A stretch of DNA of 64,000 bases from positions 930,001 to 994,000 of the forward strand of contig JAXBDG010000019.1 of NCBI GenBank assembly GCA_036320915.1, read 5' to 3'. This DNA comes from Linnemannia elongata. Lineage: Eukaryota; Mortierellomycota; Mortierellomycetes; Mortierellales; Mortierellaceae. Positions 55,706 through 64,000 of this stretch are shown in pieces (positions within the stretch are counted from its first letter, which is position 1; every line of letters begins with the position of its first letter). The position numbers were made by a program, and so were the translations under genes. Under the pieces are notes generated by a model that made no database searches, was not told the origin of the DNA, and saw only the letters and a program-made list of their open reading frames with translations.

Positions 55706-58336
55706 TTTTTTTTTTTTTTTTTTTTTTTTTTTCGTACACAATTTTATTTCTCTGACAAACAGAACAAAGGAGGCATTTGGAAGTAAAAGGGACTACAGAC
55801 CAAACTCTTCAGTGAACCATCCGTCAGTCACAGTCCGGTCCGGGACCTGGCTCTGCGCAACAATTGTCGCTGCTCTTCACAGCAATAACGGAAGAAAATA
55901 AAACTAGATACGAATGAAAGGGATTCTTCCCATCCTCTCCATCAATGTTAACCTCCTCCTTCCCAACAAGCTGTCTAACAGCCGTTCATCAGCTGCTCGT
56001 GGATTCTTGGTCGCTCCAGGGCATGTCCGATCCTCATGTGTGGCTAGCGAAGCGCCACACGGGCAGAAACCATCGCGCGTGATATAGCCATATCCTTGAC
56101 TCCAGTCACCACGAGGACCTGTGTATTTGGATGTCTTGTCCTTTACAGAGATGCCCTGGGTCTGCTCCCACTCGATAGTCGCGGAGCATCGGGGTTTCCA
56201 GATCCGCTCTGAGGCCTGCGTCTCCAGGTAGCCAACAAATTTGTGGAGGACCGTCTTGGCGATGGACAGTGGGGTTCTGAAAACCGCGCACCATTCGGTC
56301 AACATGCTCTTTGGAGTGATGCCGCGGAGTAGGTCCGATACGTTCCACTTGGGGTTCTCATCGCGATCGGGAGCAGGACTACCGCTGTGCACGGCTCGAG
56401 CTCCACCGATAGAGGAGAATCCCCGCACATGATCCGCATCTCGGGGGGGTCGCCAGTGTATGAGTACTGGTCGCGGGGCTTGACGACCGTTATCCACCGC
56501 ACGTTGGTGTTCTCGCTTCCTGGCTGCATTGTAGTTGTTTGTCGCCTGTACACCCCAATCGTCGATCTTGCCCATAGCCTCCTTCCAGATCGTAGTGGTG
56601 GTCTCAGCTGCCGAGGGACAGTTCCAGACATGCTCGTTATCCTCCTTCTTAAGCTCGCATCGTCGGCAAAGGCATGTTGGGTACAGGTTGGGCTTGCGGG
56701 CCTGCATGGAGTTCAGGGTGGGCAACATTCCATGCAGCTTTTTGACGTGATGTGTCCGTTGATGAGAGTCTTTGCTATTACTGTAAAAGGTGAAGACTGC
56801 TCGCCTGTCGTGAACATGAGCCAAGGTCGAGGTCCACTCCACGTCGTCAATGTCAGGGATCGCCCTCTTCACCCGTCTCTGCGACGTCCAGGCCTGGTGG
56901 TGTCGGATTGTCGTTTGTTGTTTGAGGAGTTGTCGTAGGTCGATTTCAACAAGCGCACCATAGCAATGTGCAAAGCTCGTGATATCCGCCTGCTGAGTGA
57001 GATCCACCTTCAAGGGTACTGTAGCGCTCTGTGCAGCCGCCTTTGCCGCCTGATCCGCCAGCTCGTTACCTTGGATGTTGCTGTGTCCTTTGATCCAGAC
57101 AACCTCAACCCCTCCTGGCCGAGATTCCACAACCTGCCATAGTACCGCCCAAATACCCGCGTATGTGCTCCTGAATCGTTTCCTCGGTAAGGCATCCCGA
57201 CGATTCTTCACTAGACGTTGGTACTGGTCCACCACCGACTCGTTGTCTAATTTGACCACAATGTCTTGTTCCGGAGGTGCTGACAAGACTGCGACTAGTA
57301 GACCTATGAGCTCTGACTTGGCCGAGGAAGCATGGCCATCCGTTCGTCCTTGTACTGTCAGGGGGTTCTCCAGAGCGAGATCCACTACTCCAAAAGCCAG
57401 TGACACTTCCGATGTTCCTGAATTCAGAAGAGATCCGTCAGAGTATATAGCTCGAGGGGTGGAGTTGTTGACTGGTGTGTCCTGGATCATGCGTATGGAC
57501 GCCGCCTCTGTTGGGGACAAGCAAAGGGGGCCGATCTGTGTGGTAAGGGGTCTTGCTATCGACGGTGGTTGAACTTGATAGCATTTTTTCAAGGGAAAAC
57601 TGATACTTGTATCGAAGGCAGGTTTGTATCGTGATGTCGTCTCCTTGGGGCGGGACCGTATCTCCTTTGGGCGGGACCGTATCTCCTTTAAGCGTGAAAC
57701 GACCGCTTGATGTTGTTGATGTAGTGCTTCTGTTTTCTGATGCTGTTGAAGGTTTCTGGTTTGAATGATTTCCTGCAGGCGTGAAACAACCTGGTGATGT
57801 TGTTGATGGAGTGATTCTGTTTCCAGCAGTTTCTCAGCTTGAAGGGATTCCTGCAGGCGAGAGGTAACTAGATAGTGCTGTTGACGAAGTTGTAGAGCCC
57901 TGTCTTGAAGAGATTCCCGCAGACGAGAGTCCTCTGCTTTCCTAATCAGTCTGGTCTCCAGGTCTTCGCGAAGTAAGGCGAGTCGACAAAGGCGGTACTC
58001 GTTGATGGCCTCGGTGGCCTGGCGACGTATCCCAAGGGCAACGGTTTTGAGGCGACTTGAGAGAGACTTGATGCGTGCAGCTGCATTGGCAGCCTGAGTA
58101 TCGAGTGTTGACATTGCGATGGCCAAGTTTTGAGGACTCTTGGCAAGTTGCTTCCGGTAGTACGTTTTGGACGTGGCATACCTTTTGTTCTCGGTCGTTT
58201 GTTTTTTCCTGGTCTCATTGGTGATGCGAAGGATCTCAGCATTGTATTCTGCCGCCGGACGGAGGAGACGTTTTCTGCAGGTCTCGTCTAGGTTGTCGAC
58301 TGCTCGCTCAAAGATACGATCGGTTGAGTCGGATGT
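55706..58336 (-). mobile_element. Non-LTR retroposon with poly(A) tail and 16 bp target duplication
   Basis: The element is bounded by the 16-mer ATTATGGTGGGCTCGC at 55690-55705 and again at 58337-58352. On the minus strand it ends in a 27-base poly(A) (T-tract 55706-55732). These two features are the mark of target-primed reverse transcription. The single large gene (55904-58114) fills most of it. There is no LTR and no visible reverse transcriptase, so it was probably mobilised in trans by an autonomous LINE, or it is a 5'-truncated copy whose remaining frame happens to be open. Confidence 0.9.
55904..58114 (-). CDS. Retroposon protein: coiled coil, RNase H, zinc knuckles (736 aa)
   Basis: ATG at 58114 (MSTLDTQAANAAARIKSLSS). 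Residues about 1-170 form a Gln/Glu/Leu-rich coiled coil with internal repeats (LHQQHHQVVSRLQEI, LHQQHQAVVSRLKEI, then RSRPKEI twice). RNase H follows: IYSDGSL (first Asp), SAKSELIGLL (Glu), VVKLDNESVV (Asp) and IKGHSNIQGNELADQAA (last Asp with conserved His). Next is a zf-RVT-like C-x2-C...H...C motif (CLCRRCELKKEDNEHVWNCP), as found behind LINE reverse transcriptases. The C-terminus has CPCGASLATHEDRTC. No reverse transcriptase motifs (such as YADD) are present. All four RNase H carboxylates are there, so the enzyme could be active. The frame is uninterrupted. Confidence 0.85.
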   Translation of the reverse strand: MSTLDTQAANAAARIKSLSSRLKTVALGIRRQATEAINEYRLCRLALLREDLETRLIRKAEDSRLRESLQDRALQLRQQHYLVTSRLQESLQAEKLLETESLHQQHHQVVSRLQEIIQTRNLQQHQKTEALHQQHQAVVSRLKEIRSRPKEIRSRPKETTSRYKPAFDTSISFPLKKCYQVQPPSIARPLTTQIGPLCLSPTEAASIRMIQDTPVNNSTPRAIYSDGSLLNSGTSEVSLAFGVVDLALENPLTVQGRTDGHASSAKSELIGLLVAVLSAPPEQDIVVKLDNESVVDQYQRLVKNRRDALPRKRFRSTYAGIWAVLWQVVESRPGGVEVVWIKGHSNIQGNELADQAAKAAAQSATVPLKVDLTQQADITSFAHCYGALVEIDLRQLLKQQTTIRHHQAWTSQRRVKRAIPDIDDVEWTSTLAHVHDRRAVFTFYSNSKDSHQRTHHVKKLHGMLPTLNSMQARKPNLYPTCLCRRCELKKEDNEHVWNCPSAAETTTTIWKEAMGKIDDWGVQATNNYNAARKREHQRAVDNGRQAPRPVLIHWRPPRDADHVRGFSSIGGARAVHSGSPAPDRDENPKWNVSDLLRGITPKSMLTEWCAVFRTPLSIAKTVLHKFVGYLETQASERIWKPRCSATIEWEQTQGISVKDKTSKYTGPRGDWSQGYGYITRDGFCPCGASLATHEDRTCPGATKNPRAADERLLDSLLGRRRLTLMERMGRIPFIRI

Positions 58337-58352
58337 ATTATGGTGGGCTCGC
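58337..58352 (+). repeat. Target-site duplication, right
   Basis: ATTATGGTGGGCTCGC, identical to 55690-55705, abuts the 5' end of the minus-strand retroposon. Confidence 0.93.
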
Positions 58353-58476
58353 CCGCCCGGGCCCGCCCGAAGAAAACGTCTCCGTTATGCCTGAAAATTG
58401 GTGGCGTTCATCAGGTGACCGATTTACACTGTGATAATATAATTGTCTCAGAACGACGGCATTCAACAACACAAGT

Positions 58477-58548
58477 TCCTAGTTGGTCCAGTGGTCAGGA
58501 TTTGTCGCTCTCACCGACAAGGCCCGGGTTCGATCCCCGGACTGGGAA
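58477..58548 (+). tRNA. tRNA-Glu (anticodon CTC)
   Basis: A 72-nt intronless cloverleaf. The acceptor stem TCCTAGT pairs with ACTGGGA (one G-U), the anticodon arm TGTCG-CTCTCAC-CGACA has CTC at 58510-58512, and the T arm is CCGGG-TTCGATC-CCCGG. The A box (TGGTCCAGTGG) and B box (GGTTCGATCC) are intact internal Pol III promoters. Discriminator base A. Decodes GAG codons. Confidence 0.95.
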
Positions 58549-59798
58549 TTACTCTTTTGCACCCCTGAAACCAGCGCGTACCCGCCGCGTCGCTGCAGGG
58601 AAAGATTTTTCTGAGATTGACGTCTTGGGTTGAGTAGAAATGAATGAATGGTTGAAAAATACTTTTTACATGCCAAACCTGCACAGATCATTCCATCCCT
58701 GTGTTACGCACAAACCGAAACGTGCTTTTTTTAGTTGGTCAAGGAGATGACGCCTCAAGCAGAAAGCCCTCTGTGGAGCCATGGTCGTCCTTCATTCTAA
58801 GTCAAGTATAATGGTTTTTTTGTCCTATGCCATGCATTTTTTCTTGATGGCTCTGAACCTTGAAGAAAGATCGCATTGCCTACAAAAAGTCGAAGGTTTC
58901 CATCGTCCCTAATCAGCTGTATAAGAGGACACTCTCAAACAAAAGTGCCTTGTTTGTTCGCGGGAGCAGCGGAAGGAATGACCTCAGGTCTGGGGCGGTG
59001 GATGCAGCAATCTCGAGGATAGTGAACAGGACGATCTCGAGGAGACCGGTATCTTGGACACATTTGCCGGTTGATCCAGAGGTAGTCCAAGGCAGATTCG
59101 ACATTTGAGAGGCATGGTGGCATATGGAGTGCAACTTTGATCTTGATCAAGGGTTTGGATTTAGCTATGTGTAAGTTGAAAGCCAAGTGTTAGGAAGACC
59201 TGGCTAGGAAATGAATAGCTAGGGTGAAGCATGCTTCAGTTGGATGAACAGCGCATTCTGATATTGAAAGGGAAAGTTAAATGCGACCCGGGGCTTGTAT
59301 TAGGACACAGCCATTCAGGAAGAAAGAAGTTAGTTCTATGCCATTTGTGCGGCCAGCGTCTCGGGTGGAAAAAAGTGGTTTATTAATGGGAAAAAAAAAA
59401 AAAAAAAAAAAAAAAAAAGAAGCATTGTGTGGCAGTTCACTCGGACGTGGAATATATATCAAAGAACAGAGAGGAAAGCATCAAACAGATGAGATCTATT
59501 TGGTAACCCTGGGTTGTTCCTTTTGCTTGACAACCCCCTATGCTTACTGTGCCAAGTCCATGCAACTTATTACTTGTAACTTCATATCGATAGCGCGTTG
59601 ATGGTGACACCAAATTATAAGGAAGGCATTCTTTTCGTTTTCGTTAGAACGAAGTATGAGACACTCCAAAGAAATGCTACAATTCGCCTGTCTCAACTAT
59701 GAAGGCGTTGTTTCAGGAAACAACCAGTCTCTAATGGAGTATGGAAAGGTAAATGACATGGATAGGTTGGGAAGCATTGACCTCTGCTAAAAAAAAGG
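58549..59798. other. Intergenic, repeat-derived sequence
   Basis: No supported gene. A long A-tract occurs at 59391-59418. The stretch at about 59500-59580 (CCTGGGTTGTT ... CAAGTCCATGCAACTTATTA) is a diverged match to the inverted-repeat element that follows. Confidence 0.4.
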
Positions 59799-60336: not shown

Positions 60337-61429
60337 CTACTTTGCAGGTGCAGGGAGTGGTGCCGCCTTTCTTTGCCTTTCTGAGAGTGGGTTGAGCTGA
60401 GGTATTTTTTCAATTTGCTGCCGCTTCACTTTATTATTGTTTTTTTTTTTTATGACTGAACATTAGAAAACACGTTAAAAGTATCCAAAGTACCTGCTTG
60501 GTCCTGTGCACTACATACTGTAGCAGTCTTCTTTGAGGAGGGCGCTTGTGTCGCCAAGGGTTCGTCGTAAATGCTGCAGTCGTTGTCGACATTCTGGACA
60601 GATATGAAACGATGTTCACAGTAACAACTTTCACATATCCCAACCACTCTAAGCAACGTCCTCCAGCATGAATGAAGCAGAATTGTCCAAGATGGAGCAG
60701 CTGACCGATCCGTTGATGAATAGTTCCTGGAGTTGATTACGAGAAGAGCTCGTCGGATTGATAACATTGTTGTGTGCGGCCTGACATTGATTGTGAGTTG
60801 GAGAACTGGAAGTTGATGGGAGAGGAAGAGAGAGGGGTAAAAAGGGGGTGAAAGGAGAGGGGAAGGGATGGATGGAAATGAAATCATGGTTGAAAGGGTG
60901 GATGAAAGAAAGAAAGAAAGAAGAAAGACTACGATCAGTAGAGTATTTTCAAATTTGTTTCTTTGTCGAGCTGACTCCTTTTTGAATTTCCAATGGCTCC
61001 AGTCCGTTAGTCTATGAGAGACAATGCCTTTGAGTGGGCTTTTGTTCCTATGACAGTTTAAGAAAGAGTAGACCGGACACAAACTTGACCCAGATCCAAG
61101 AACCCGATCAAGAGGAATGGCGATTGTGTTCATTCCATTGTTTGCATTTTGTTTTTTTTTGTTTTGTGAACTGAAAAGGAGAGAAAAAAAAATGAATGCT
61201 GAGGAAGGTAAGATAGAAACATAGTAGCCGACTCTCTTTAAGAACAATAAATAAGTTGACCGAGTCAAAGGATAGAAGCATGTAGACAATTCAAAAACAG
61301 ACCAAAACAACCTACCTTGTGCTATGTTGCGAATGTGAAAAGGAGCGTTCAGAGGGATAGATAGACTGGCGCAGCCATCAACTAGTATCGCGGCCATCCT
61401 CTTCCTCGTGGCTGCCCAATATCGAGCAG
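60337..61429. other. Region upstream of the Fanzor fragment
   Basis: A 315-codon minus-strand frame (60450-61397) lacks family motifs and contains poly-T and microsatellite-encoded runs, so I do not call it a gene. No plus-strand frame encoding an N-terminal Fanzor domain is present here. Confidence 0.4.
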
Positions 61430-61453
61430 GGTCAAGAGCCTGGGGGTACTACC

Positions 61454-62830
61454 ATGGAGTCATTGCTGTTGAGTATTGAGGCAGAGGAGGATGGAGAGTC
61501 CAAGGAGCCGTCGCCCAAGTTTTTCAACCTAACCGTCAAGCAGAAGGCTGTCTATCAGCCCACCTTCAAACACAGACGACGGTTGGAGCGAAGAAAGGAG
61601 CAGGCAGTTGAGGGAGGGGTTTCCATACGCCATATTGAGACCAGTCTACCTTCTCGTCGGGGTCCAGAGGCAAGTGTCAGCAACTATTTGGAGAGGGAGA
61701 GGGAGGTGGAGGCCGATCTTGATTCGTTCTATGGCAGTGTGGTTCTGAAGAAACATAAGTGGAACGCTAGAAAGGCTCGAGCAGAGGAGTACAGATTGAT
61801 CGCCGACCGTCTCTTGCGTCTTGTTGGAGGATTCACTGGGGTCAAAAGAGACAAGGACAACAAGGTCGTCATTGGCGTGGGACTTGGAAATTTTTCCTCC
61901 AAGATCAGACTGTCGTCTTTGCACAACTCCTTCCAGGCCTATTTTATTCAAAAAGTAAGTGTGTGAATTACAGCCAACTGTTTGGTTCAGACGCTTGAAG
62001 AAACACGTATTAACTTTTTTTTGCTCTTTACTCTCCTTTATTTCTTTTAGGCTCGATCTCTTGGCTACATTGTGGTTGGTGTCAATGAGTTTTACACTTC
62101 CAAGAAGTGCCCGACTTGTAGAGAGTTCGTTGGCCAAGTTGACCTCCGTCGACTTTACTGTTCAAAGTGTAAAAAGTACATGCGCCGTGATGTCATGGCA
62201 GGCAATAATATCTGCAATGCCATCCGAGGACACCTGCTCGATCAACAGCGACCACTTTACCTTCAGCCCAAGGACACTAACGGCAACTATCCTTGGATGC
62301 AGAGCGAGCGCAGGTTCCAGCCACGCCCTGGCATCCAGCCTGTGTATGTCCTCTGTGCATTAGCCCATGTACAGCCCGCATATTACCCCCTGTTTGTTAC
62401 CCAATGATAACCTCTCTACCATGCTTCGACACTTCCGCGACACACGTCTCGTCAGCATTGCATTGATACTTTTCACATTCCACATGAATAGATCGTCATG
62501 AAAGGATCTGAGGGCTCGAAAGGCTCAAACAAAGAAGCCTGGAAGAATGGGATTGACACAGCTAGGGCCGGAGCCGGGTATTTTCTGTCATTTAAAGGAA
62601 AGCCCGAGTTCAAACCTTTAAAACGCGTATCATTCCGTAGACTGACGTTATCTGAAGCACAGCGTCTTCTTCCAGCTGAGTGGGTCCGATGGGTACAAGA
62701 TTTGAAGGCCTGTCCCTACGAGCATGTCCGAAGAAGAGCAGCATCGGCTCCAACCATGACAGTTGACGACATTTACAATTTCTACAAGACCCGTATTCTC
62801 GATAATCATGAGTTAGAAATTCTCGGATAG
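61454..62830 (+). CDS. Fanzor (eukaryotic TnpB-like) nuclease, C-terminal portion
   Basis: The exons are 61454-61954, 62051-62341 and probably 62492-62830, joined by GT-AG introns. Family landmarks: NLTVKQKAVYQPTFKHRRRL, IRHIETSLPSRRGPEASVSN, KKHKWNARKARAEEYRLIAD, VVIGVGLGNFSSKIRLSSLH, then VVGVNEFYTSKKCPTC, LYCSKC and RRDVMAGNNICNAI. The last three are the relocated RuvC-II Glu (NEFYTS), the zinc ribbon (CPTC...CSKC) and RuvC-III (D..A..NI). Fanzors are RNA-guided DNA nucleases related to transposon TnpB. The N-terminal REC/WED half is not found upstream, so this is 5'-truncated or split by an unrecognised distant exon. The frame is open upstream of the ATG through GQEPGG (61430-61447), where a RuvC-I GxDPG would be expected. 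Exon 3 is not a known Fanzor part and ends in TAG. Confidence 0.82.
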
Positions 62831-62843
62831 TCTTCACGGCAGG

Positions 62844-64000
62844 TCGTGAGTGGTGGGCATGAGCTGGCATCACTTCTGCAAGACCGCCAAAGTATGTACC
62901 TGTGGCTAACTGCTGTCTTCATTCTTGTTTGTTGTTGTTTCTTGCTTCACTTGTCGTCTCTGGTAGGACAACTCAATCACGCCACAATGACGACATCTGC
63001 ATTGGTCTCTAACTTATGATCCTTGGCCTCCCTTTGCTTTTCAATGTTTTATAGAAGAAGTTCTGCCGGTTGGACGTAAACGCCCTCGGGAGCAGTTTGA
63101 TGATGACGACAATGTACAGTCATGGACACCAGAAAACACGAAGTGTATGTACAATTCAGACCGCATCATGGATAAACTGCTTTTTCATTTTTTTGTGGCG
63201 CAGACTGTTCTTCGTTCTTCCTCCACTAGCGCCCTCACCAACGCCTATTCGTACCGAGTCTGTGGACAGTCCAGTGACGATTTCTACTGTTGGTAAAGAG
63301 AAAGACCCATTCCAAAACAACGAAGACGATGATGAGGAAGATGAAGAGGAAGCTGGTGACGACGAGGATGCGGAGGAATACAACACTTTCCTCCCAGATA
63401 AAACGGAGCTCGACTATCAGTTTGTAGGATCCCTCGATGGGATCAACATTGCGGATGGATTTGAAAACCTCTTCAACGTTGTCAAGAGGAAGAAGGTTGA
63501 TATCAAGGATACAGACCAGGCCCTGTAAGTGTGTGTTTTGTGATGAGTGATTTATTTAAGGCTGATTCCTACATTAATGGATACACATTCTCACTGGTTC
63601 AAACTTGTCTTTTGCCTTGAACTTGCAGTGCCCGATCTGGCATAATCCTCTTGGAAGTGGAGGGGACGGATCTTCAGAAAAAGCACTTTGGAGAGGCAAC
63701 GATCATTGCGATGCGGGAAAAAGCACTGAAGAAGTGGCATGAGCCTGAGGCAAGCACCACCCGGAGCGATGTCCGTGACAGGCTGGATGTAAGTGTTTCT
63801 TGTAGGGCGTGGTTTGAACAAGACGACCCGAAAGAATGCAGTTTTTGACTTGTATCTACTTTTTTCAGCACCTAGAGGATTATGGCTACAATCGAATCAA
63901 GACACTGGACCATCTTCATTTGAACCGCCCAACAGATCCTAAGCGTCAGCCTCTCTGGACGTTCATGATGAGTGCTTTGCAGAATTTCCCCCAGTCTGAC
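62844..64000 (+). CDS. Unrecognised protein with acidic region, partial (runs off window)
   Basis: A chain of exons keeps one frame through canonical introns: about 62844-62891, 63055-63144, 63230-63524, 63629-63788 and 63869 to the window end. The encoded protein reads HELASLLQDRQ/KEVLPVGRKRPREQ, then SPSPTPIRTESVDSPVTIST, an Asp/Glu-rich stretch (63322-63380), YNTFLPDKTELDYQFVGSLD, ARSGIILLEVEGTDLQKKHF, and HLEDYGYNRIKTLDHLHLNR. No known domain is recognised. The KRPR motif could be a nuclear signal. The first exon shares its frame with the end of the Fanzor exon, separated only by TAG at 62828-62830, so its true start is unresolved: it may be spliced in with a 3' acceptor (CGGCAG, 62839-62844) or belong to a longer gene. 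Confidence 0.55.

Follow-up and report, generated by a model that had tools for sequence, protein, structure and literature searches.

We examined a 64,000-nucleotide stretch of Linnemannia elongata DNA (hereafter the window; contig JAXBDG010000019.1, G000:C11:930001-994000 in a genome of 51.1 Mb in 32 contigs) that carries a sequence related to Fanzor, the eukaryotic RNA-guided nuclease. The initial annotation of this DNA recognized a Fanzor homolog from a set of motifs in a fixed order, and this order was confirmed: NLTVKQKAVYQP, VIGVGLGNFSSK, NEFYTSKKCPTC, LYCSKC and RRDVMAGNNICNAI succeed one another on the + strand, in two exons around a predicted 96-bp intron. The reading frame is open from 61361, with its first ATG at 61454, and the predicted spliced product has 285 aa. 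The locus is made up of the following parts:

61411..62331, + strand: Fanzor fragment; the entire DNA alignable to the closest copy, on contig C23, at 81% identity (blastn comparing the window from 57000 on with nine relative loci)
61454..61954, + strand: exon 1 of the open reading frame (ORF) of the fragment, from the first ATG; covers the region past RuvC-I as far as the RuvC-II strand (GVGLGNFSS)
61955..62050, + strand: predicted intron of 96 bp, GTAAGT...TTTTAG (GT-AG), at a position matching that in relatives
62051..62407, + strand: exon 2 with the zinc ribbon; stop codon at 62405-62407
62087..62089, + strand: codon of the relocated (alternative) Glu, E180, six residues ahead of the zinc ribbon (pattern match)
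62108..62170, + strand: C4 zinc ribbon, CPTC...CSKC
62189..62191, + strand: codon of the RuvC-III Asp, D214 (RRD)

A Pfam search with the window protein returned Cas12f1-like_TNB (E 8.3e-13). The NCBIfam TnpB models matched the C-terminal part only, far under their cut-offs, and PADLOC matches were confined to the zinc-ribbon region (Cas12f, Cas12u and one model named Csx1). There were 104 exon-level matches in the organism's own genome, the window's two counted; grouping them gave 64 Fanzor copies or fragments. The window query also matched 104 public proteins, the best named one with 82% identity over 81% of the query. In searches on a limited set of words, all named matches came from Mortierella and related genera, which we take to be Mortierellaceae and which agrees with the Mortierella-like origin proposed for this DNA. 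Judged by sequence matches far beyond chance, the locus is a real Fanzor homolog represented by its C-terminal region. The earlier family assignment stands, as do the intact relocated Glu, zinc ribbon and RuvC-III Asp. The working state that the signature was taken to imply does not, given what is missing from this copy.

Comparison with relatives indicated where the window copy breaks off. Homology to C23 is confined to the fragment listed above and starts about 20 codons past the RuvC-I Asp of C23; the C31 copy, which also has RuvC-I, aligns with window 61515-62297 (blastn). Upstream of the aligned part, the C23 copy continues with SIKILGIDLGQAFVVGASAILPP (the RuvC-I motif, IDLGQAF), preceded by a TDG-bearing half in two frames and, further upstream, by an XPG/FEN1-like exon. 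When the long exons of C31 and of two C8 copies were compared with all 64 kb, only 61415-61987 was matched. All 12 full-length public relatives matched the 64-kb window exactly once, at 61400-62335 and from residue 874 or later, and their first ~870 residues left no trace in it. As a control, the same 12 relatives all found their upstream parts, FEN domain included, at the C23 locus. Aligned with public protein P0150, whose RuvC-I motif lies at D863, the window copy shares sequence from a point further downstream, at about N892, and no D-x-G motif occurs in the window ORF or in the 45-residue upstream extension examined. Set against the Fanzor pattern of PMC3627910, D-X(125,275)-[TS][TS]XX-[C4]-X(5,50)-RD, the window copy has [TS][TS]XX-C4-RD and lacks the conserved Asp. 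By these alignments, the coding sequence beyond 62331 is not family sequence; the block found at the right end of relatives is absent from the fragment, and neither of its two flanks has a second DNA match in the genome.

Because homology starts at 61411 and the relatives match the window only once, the window has neither the RuvC-I Asp nor the WED/REC half that binds guide RNA and target, nor anything further upstream. As far as alignment can tell, the window copy is a 3' Fanzor fragment without RuvC-I Asp, upstream half or conserved right end. With these parts missing, it is likely unable to act as an RNA-guided nuclease: guide loading and cutting would both fail, and the 285-aa product, if made, would be inert. 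The fragment is probably the dead 3' relic of a transposon; for its full-length relatives, proteins of about 1,300 residues are predicted, each with a FEN1/EXO1-like nuclease in front of a Fanzor.

Long copies occur in near-identical sets (L039/L040, 99.7%; L037/L041, 96.9%; L045/L046/L050, 97.4-98.1%) and have a five-exon layout, in which an XPG/FEN1-like exon is followed by a short exon 2, a middle exon, an exon carrying Fanzor through RuvC-II, and the zinc-ribbon exon. XPG exons were sought with a single query (L039), which diverged ones may escape; its 38 genome matches represent 37 copies, and 33 of these are followed on the same strand by a Fanzor copy at 2363-3326 nt (median 2653). Among public records, 28 of 63 proteins combine a match to the FEN profile with the zinc-ribbon signature, and so do 21 of the 27 with at least 1150 aa (gene predictions). 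The N-terminal domain of these parents has the MG start, the seven catalytic acids known from FEN1 and the predicted fold of the Rad2/XPG/FEN1/EXO1 family; in structural alignments, human EXO1 and FEN1 share 15-16% identity with it. The difference from that family is that here the domain is transposon-encoded and joined to a Fanzor. Pfam XPG_I is above its cut-off in P0115, P0147 and P0150. The predicted structure of the parents also contains the Fanzor fold. Motif patterns were run on 170 proteins, many of them partial records: RuvC-I was found in 83, the RuvC-I and alternative Glu patterns were both matched in 27 (D-to-E spacing 170-271), and TDG or TNG was present in 58 of the 66 proteins of at least 735 aa.

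Several observations weigh against these domain assignments. XPG_I falls under its cut-off in P0108, P0117, P0106 and the three own-genome exons examined. A search of the FEN profile against PDB also lists ADAM17 chains (E 2.7e-5 to 3e-4); we take these as chance matches, and the weaker E-values of that search alone prove little. No one model covers both halves well: the record P0150 is without the start of the FEN domain, and the P0117 model has a predicted template-modelling score (pTM) of 0.40. The Fanzor half of the P0117 model is poor and only its N-terminal domain was used; Fanzor was not among its 50 VIA rows, although Foldseek lists SpuFz at E 1e-5. Academ transposons were considered as a candidate source of the XPG domain; no paper on this was found in the open-licence literature searched, and we do not claim it.

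Element ends, which the initial annotation had hoped to obtain from other genome copies, were found in relatives, together with target duplications, and the window copy is missing its right-end block. We examined six elements and matched both ends in three (L040, L046 and C31), with lengths of 5090, 5259 and 5697 bp. Their left ends read GGGT(G/A)CAGGACAAT(T/G)G(A/G)CGCC and their right ends GCGCCAATTGT(C/T)CTG(C/T)(A/G)(G/A)CC, and they are flanked by exact 8-bp duplications, AAGTTCAG, TGGCGCAT and ATGCGCCT, respectively. The C31 element (C31:23848-29543; L032, L051) is a nested insertion: a 5.7-kb XPG-Fanzor element that sits within the right end of another Fanzor copy, itself a relative of the window fragment.

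Inside the right end lies a common block that may serve as the scaffold of a guide RNA. Among the fetched loci, the zinc-ribbon exon and its stop can be read in 16 distinct relatives; in 15 of them CGGTGA[C/T] occurs within this block 67-158 nt past the stop, and L029 has a near match by eye. The block folds as a hairpin, with a predicted energy under the mean of 300 shuffles in nine of nine representatives; z ranges from -1.6 to -5.7, and for the weakest of them 24 of 300 shuffles reached an equally low energy. A 30-base right-end pattern, allowing up to 3 mismatches, gave 43 genome matches against none for the reversed pattern; 31 of these follow a Fanzor copy on the same strand, at a distance of 175-1538 nt, and such a match accompanies 27 of the 33 XPG-bearing copies. 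The block could instead be a DNA end bound by a transposase, an explanation that we regard as possible if somewhat doubtful. It adjoins the inverted repeat, the hairpin has weak covariation, seen at 1 of its 11 pairs and in 3 of 10 sequences, and 12 of the 43 matches do not adjoin a Fanzor copy, all of which tells against a guide RNA. Arguing for a guide RNA, besides the folding energies, the block is restricted to the right end in the elements read, where the left end has just the outer repeat in common with it, and the available part of PMC10432273 places the known Fanzor guide RNAs at the right end. The 12 matches that have no Fanzor copy in the 2 kb before them (such as C1:391565, C9:199863 and C32:630052) may be short non-autonomous derivatives or guide-RNA-only copies.

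Whether the two nucleases form one chain depends on how the parents are spliced. Predicted GT-AG splicing joins the exons into one open frame of 1336 aa in L039 and 1317 aa in L037. It is unlikely that the FEN1/XPG-like gene and the Fanzor are two neighbouring, separately read genes of one transposon. Such a reading would suit the exon 2/3 junctions, which are less conserved than the other junctions, and L045, the third family tried, in which this junction is less clean and the model incomplete. It would also suit the failure of the single query to find an XPG exon in 31 of the 64 Fanzor copies or fragments, the one in the window among them; 22 of these 31 are single short matches. These points count against the predicted fusion; on the other side stand the two families that splice to a single open frame, the constant spacing in 33 of 37 copies and the independently annotated public proteins that join both domains, themselves gene predictions.

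We then weighed the state of the fragment itself, and here the data speak against a decaying relic. In a branch test on a three-sequence tree (window, C23 and C31; 226 gap-free codons), the window branch had t 0.53 and omega 0.13, omega = 1 was rejected (p 1.1e-5), and omega was equal on the three branches. Sixty columns show conservation of 90% or more across 148 family rows; the window differs in 2 of them, C23 likewise in 2 and C31 in 1, and 23 of the 52 rows that cover them differ in 2 or more. As no decay was seen, this conserved-column test gives the relic reading no support. The fragment shows no visible decay at all, with 285 stop-free codons and intact splice sites, which points either to a recent truncation or to a fragment still useful and retained. 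A domesticated small gene, in which a 285-aa protein of RuvC-II/III and zinc ribbon is kept for DNA or RNA binding without cutting, would account for the open two-exon ORF, the low omega, the near-intact conserved columns and the flanks without another match in the genome. Nevertheless, we consider it quite unlikely. The same omega is expected if the branch was mostly spent inside a full-length element, and half a RuvC core without its first strands would likely fold poorly. Moreover, P0008 of Mortierella sp. AD032 (83% identity over 59% of the query) keeps RuvC-I and the same spacer, indicating that long forms of the window's subfamily exist.

An intact, unusually short Fanzor whose guide RNA lies in 62342-62900 is a very improbable reading of the locus: E180, the zinc ribbon and D214 are intact, but the RuvC-I Asp, the upstream half and the right-end block are absent, and a coding exon occupies 62498-62827. 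The guide RNA that the initial annotation suggested looking for in that interval was rejected. Homology to C23 stops short of it, at 62331; a search of the window with the right-end model R1 had no hit at E<=1 (58-64 kb, searched without filters, gave E 0.99 at best); and Rfam at the gathering threshold returned one tRNA only (58477-58548), and no guide RNA, in 58-64 kb. A guide RNA of another kind is possible.

The exon that occupies this interval is the next feature of the locus:

62498..62830, + strand: start exon of another gene family, not Fanzor; paralogue at C31:30515-30799 (41%, E 5.9e-17), with its own start Met in both

No Pfam family matched this gene family. We considered an intron joining it to the Fanzor fragment, through an in-frame junction near 62342/62492, and set this aside: the paralogue on C31 has its own start Met, so the ORF at 62498-62830 begins its own gene. 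The family sits just past Fanzor copies both in the window and on C31, which could reflect an old joint duplication or chance. Just beyond the window end, an exon at L034 642-1121 (C11:994141-994620) contains EPDLALEI...ILEVGIGEV and, on visual inspection, resembles a nuclease of the PD-(D/E)XK type; it has five more genome matches at E<=0.001 and no Pfam match. Elsewhere in the window, an 826-aa open frame at 55904-58384 on the - strand has an RNase H domain (Pfam, 2.7e-11) and resembles the end of a non-LTR retrotransposon, and a tRNA-Glu gene lies about 90 bp from it (58476-58549, + strand).

Compared with described Fanzor1 proteins (SpuFz1, PpFz1, GtFz1), the relatives differ in several respects. 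The available part of PMC10711439 describes a RuvC-I motif that is near exclusively DPG, an alternative Glu six residues ahead of the zinc finger, a TDG motif, and some Fanzor1s of up to about 800 aa. Here the alternative Glu and TDG are likewise found, whereas DPG accounts for only 3 of the 83 RuvC-I motifs and most are DLG (55), DAG (13) or DGG (11), 79 of 83 together, with DMG in one. The parents are also longer, at about 1,150-1,360 aa, and have the FEN1-like nuclease in front; in the window copy, just the region past RuvC-I is left. PMC3627910, in its available part, describes, besides the C-terminal Fanzor motif, the MuDR-like elements ROr-4, PBl-3 and MCi-4 of the fungi Rhizopus, Phycomyces and Mucor. 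These likewise have inverted repeats, carry a Fanzor and lack their own MuDR transposase, but their target duplications measure 9 bp rather than the 8 bp found here. The word XPG does not occur in the main text of that paper, and neither XPG nor Mortierella occurs in the main text of PMC10432273, whose available part reports Fz1 as highly spread in fungi. The extra domain of PpFz1, the FRI domain described in the available part of PMC11423790, is an insertion in RuvC, in contrast to the N-terminal nuclease here; the same part reports a Fanzor with a variant catalytic triad and no FEN1/XPG-like nuclease on a Fanzor. Variation among Fanzors thus has precedent. The available part of PMC11071296 mentions 'Fanzor flap endonuclease homologs' in viruses and no fusion. 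In the open-licence literature we did not find a pairing of Fanzor with XPG/FEN1, or a Fanzor or TnpB in Mortierella, described.

Together, these data lead us to a tentative model that may well hold in only some of its parts. Mortierellaceae would carry inverted-repeat transposons whose sole recognized gene encodes a single-chain Fanzor with an N-terminal FEN1/EXO1-type 5' nuclease, the two halves acting in sequence. The right-end hairpin block would provide the scaffold of the guide RNA and the flanking DNA its guide, steering the Fanzor half to the vacated site, where it would open an R-loop and RuvC would cut. The FEN1/EXO1-like half would then remove 5' flaps or resect 5' ends at the break, and this end processing would favour repair that copies the element back into the site it had left. 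The window copy would be a captured piece of such an element, and it illustrates how Fanzor calls made from C-terminal motifs alone can take a relic for an enzyme. In the consulted parts of the publications, Fanzors are described as single-nuclease enzymes. If true, a Fanzor-FEN1/EXO1-type fusion present in several diverged families and in dozens of copies within one genome would represent a eukaryotic RNA-guided cutter coupled to end processing; for genome editing, its linked 5' resection activity could bias repair. Such a fusion would make it testable what Fanzors do for their transposons.
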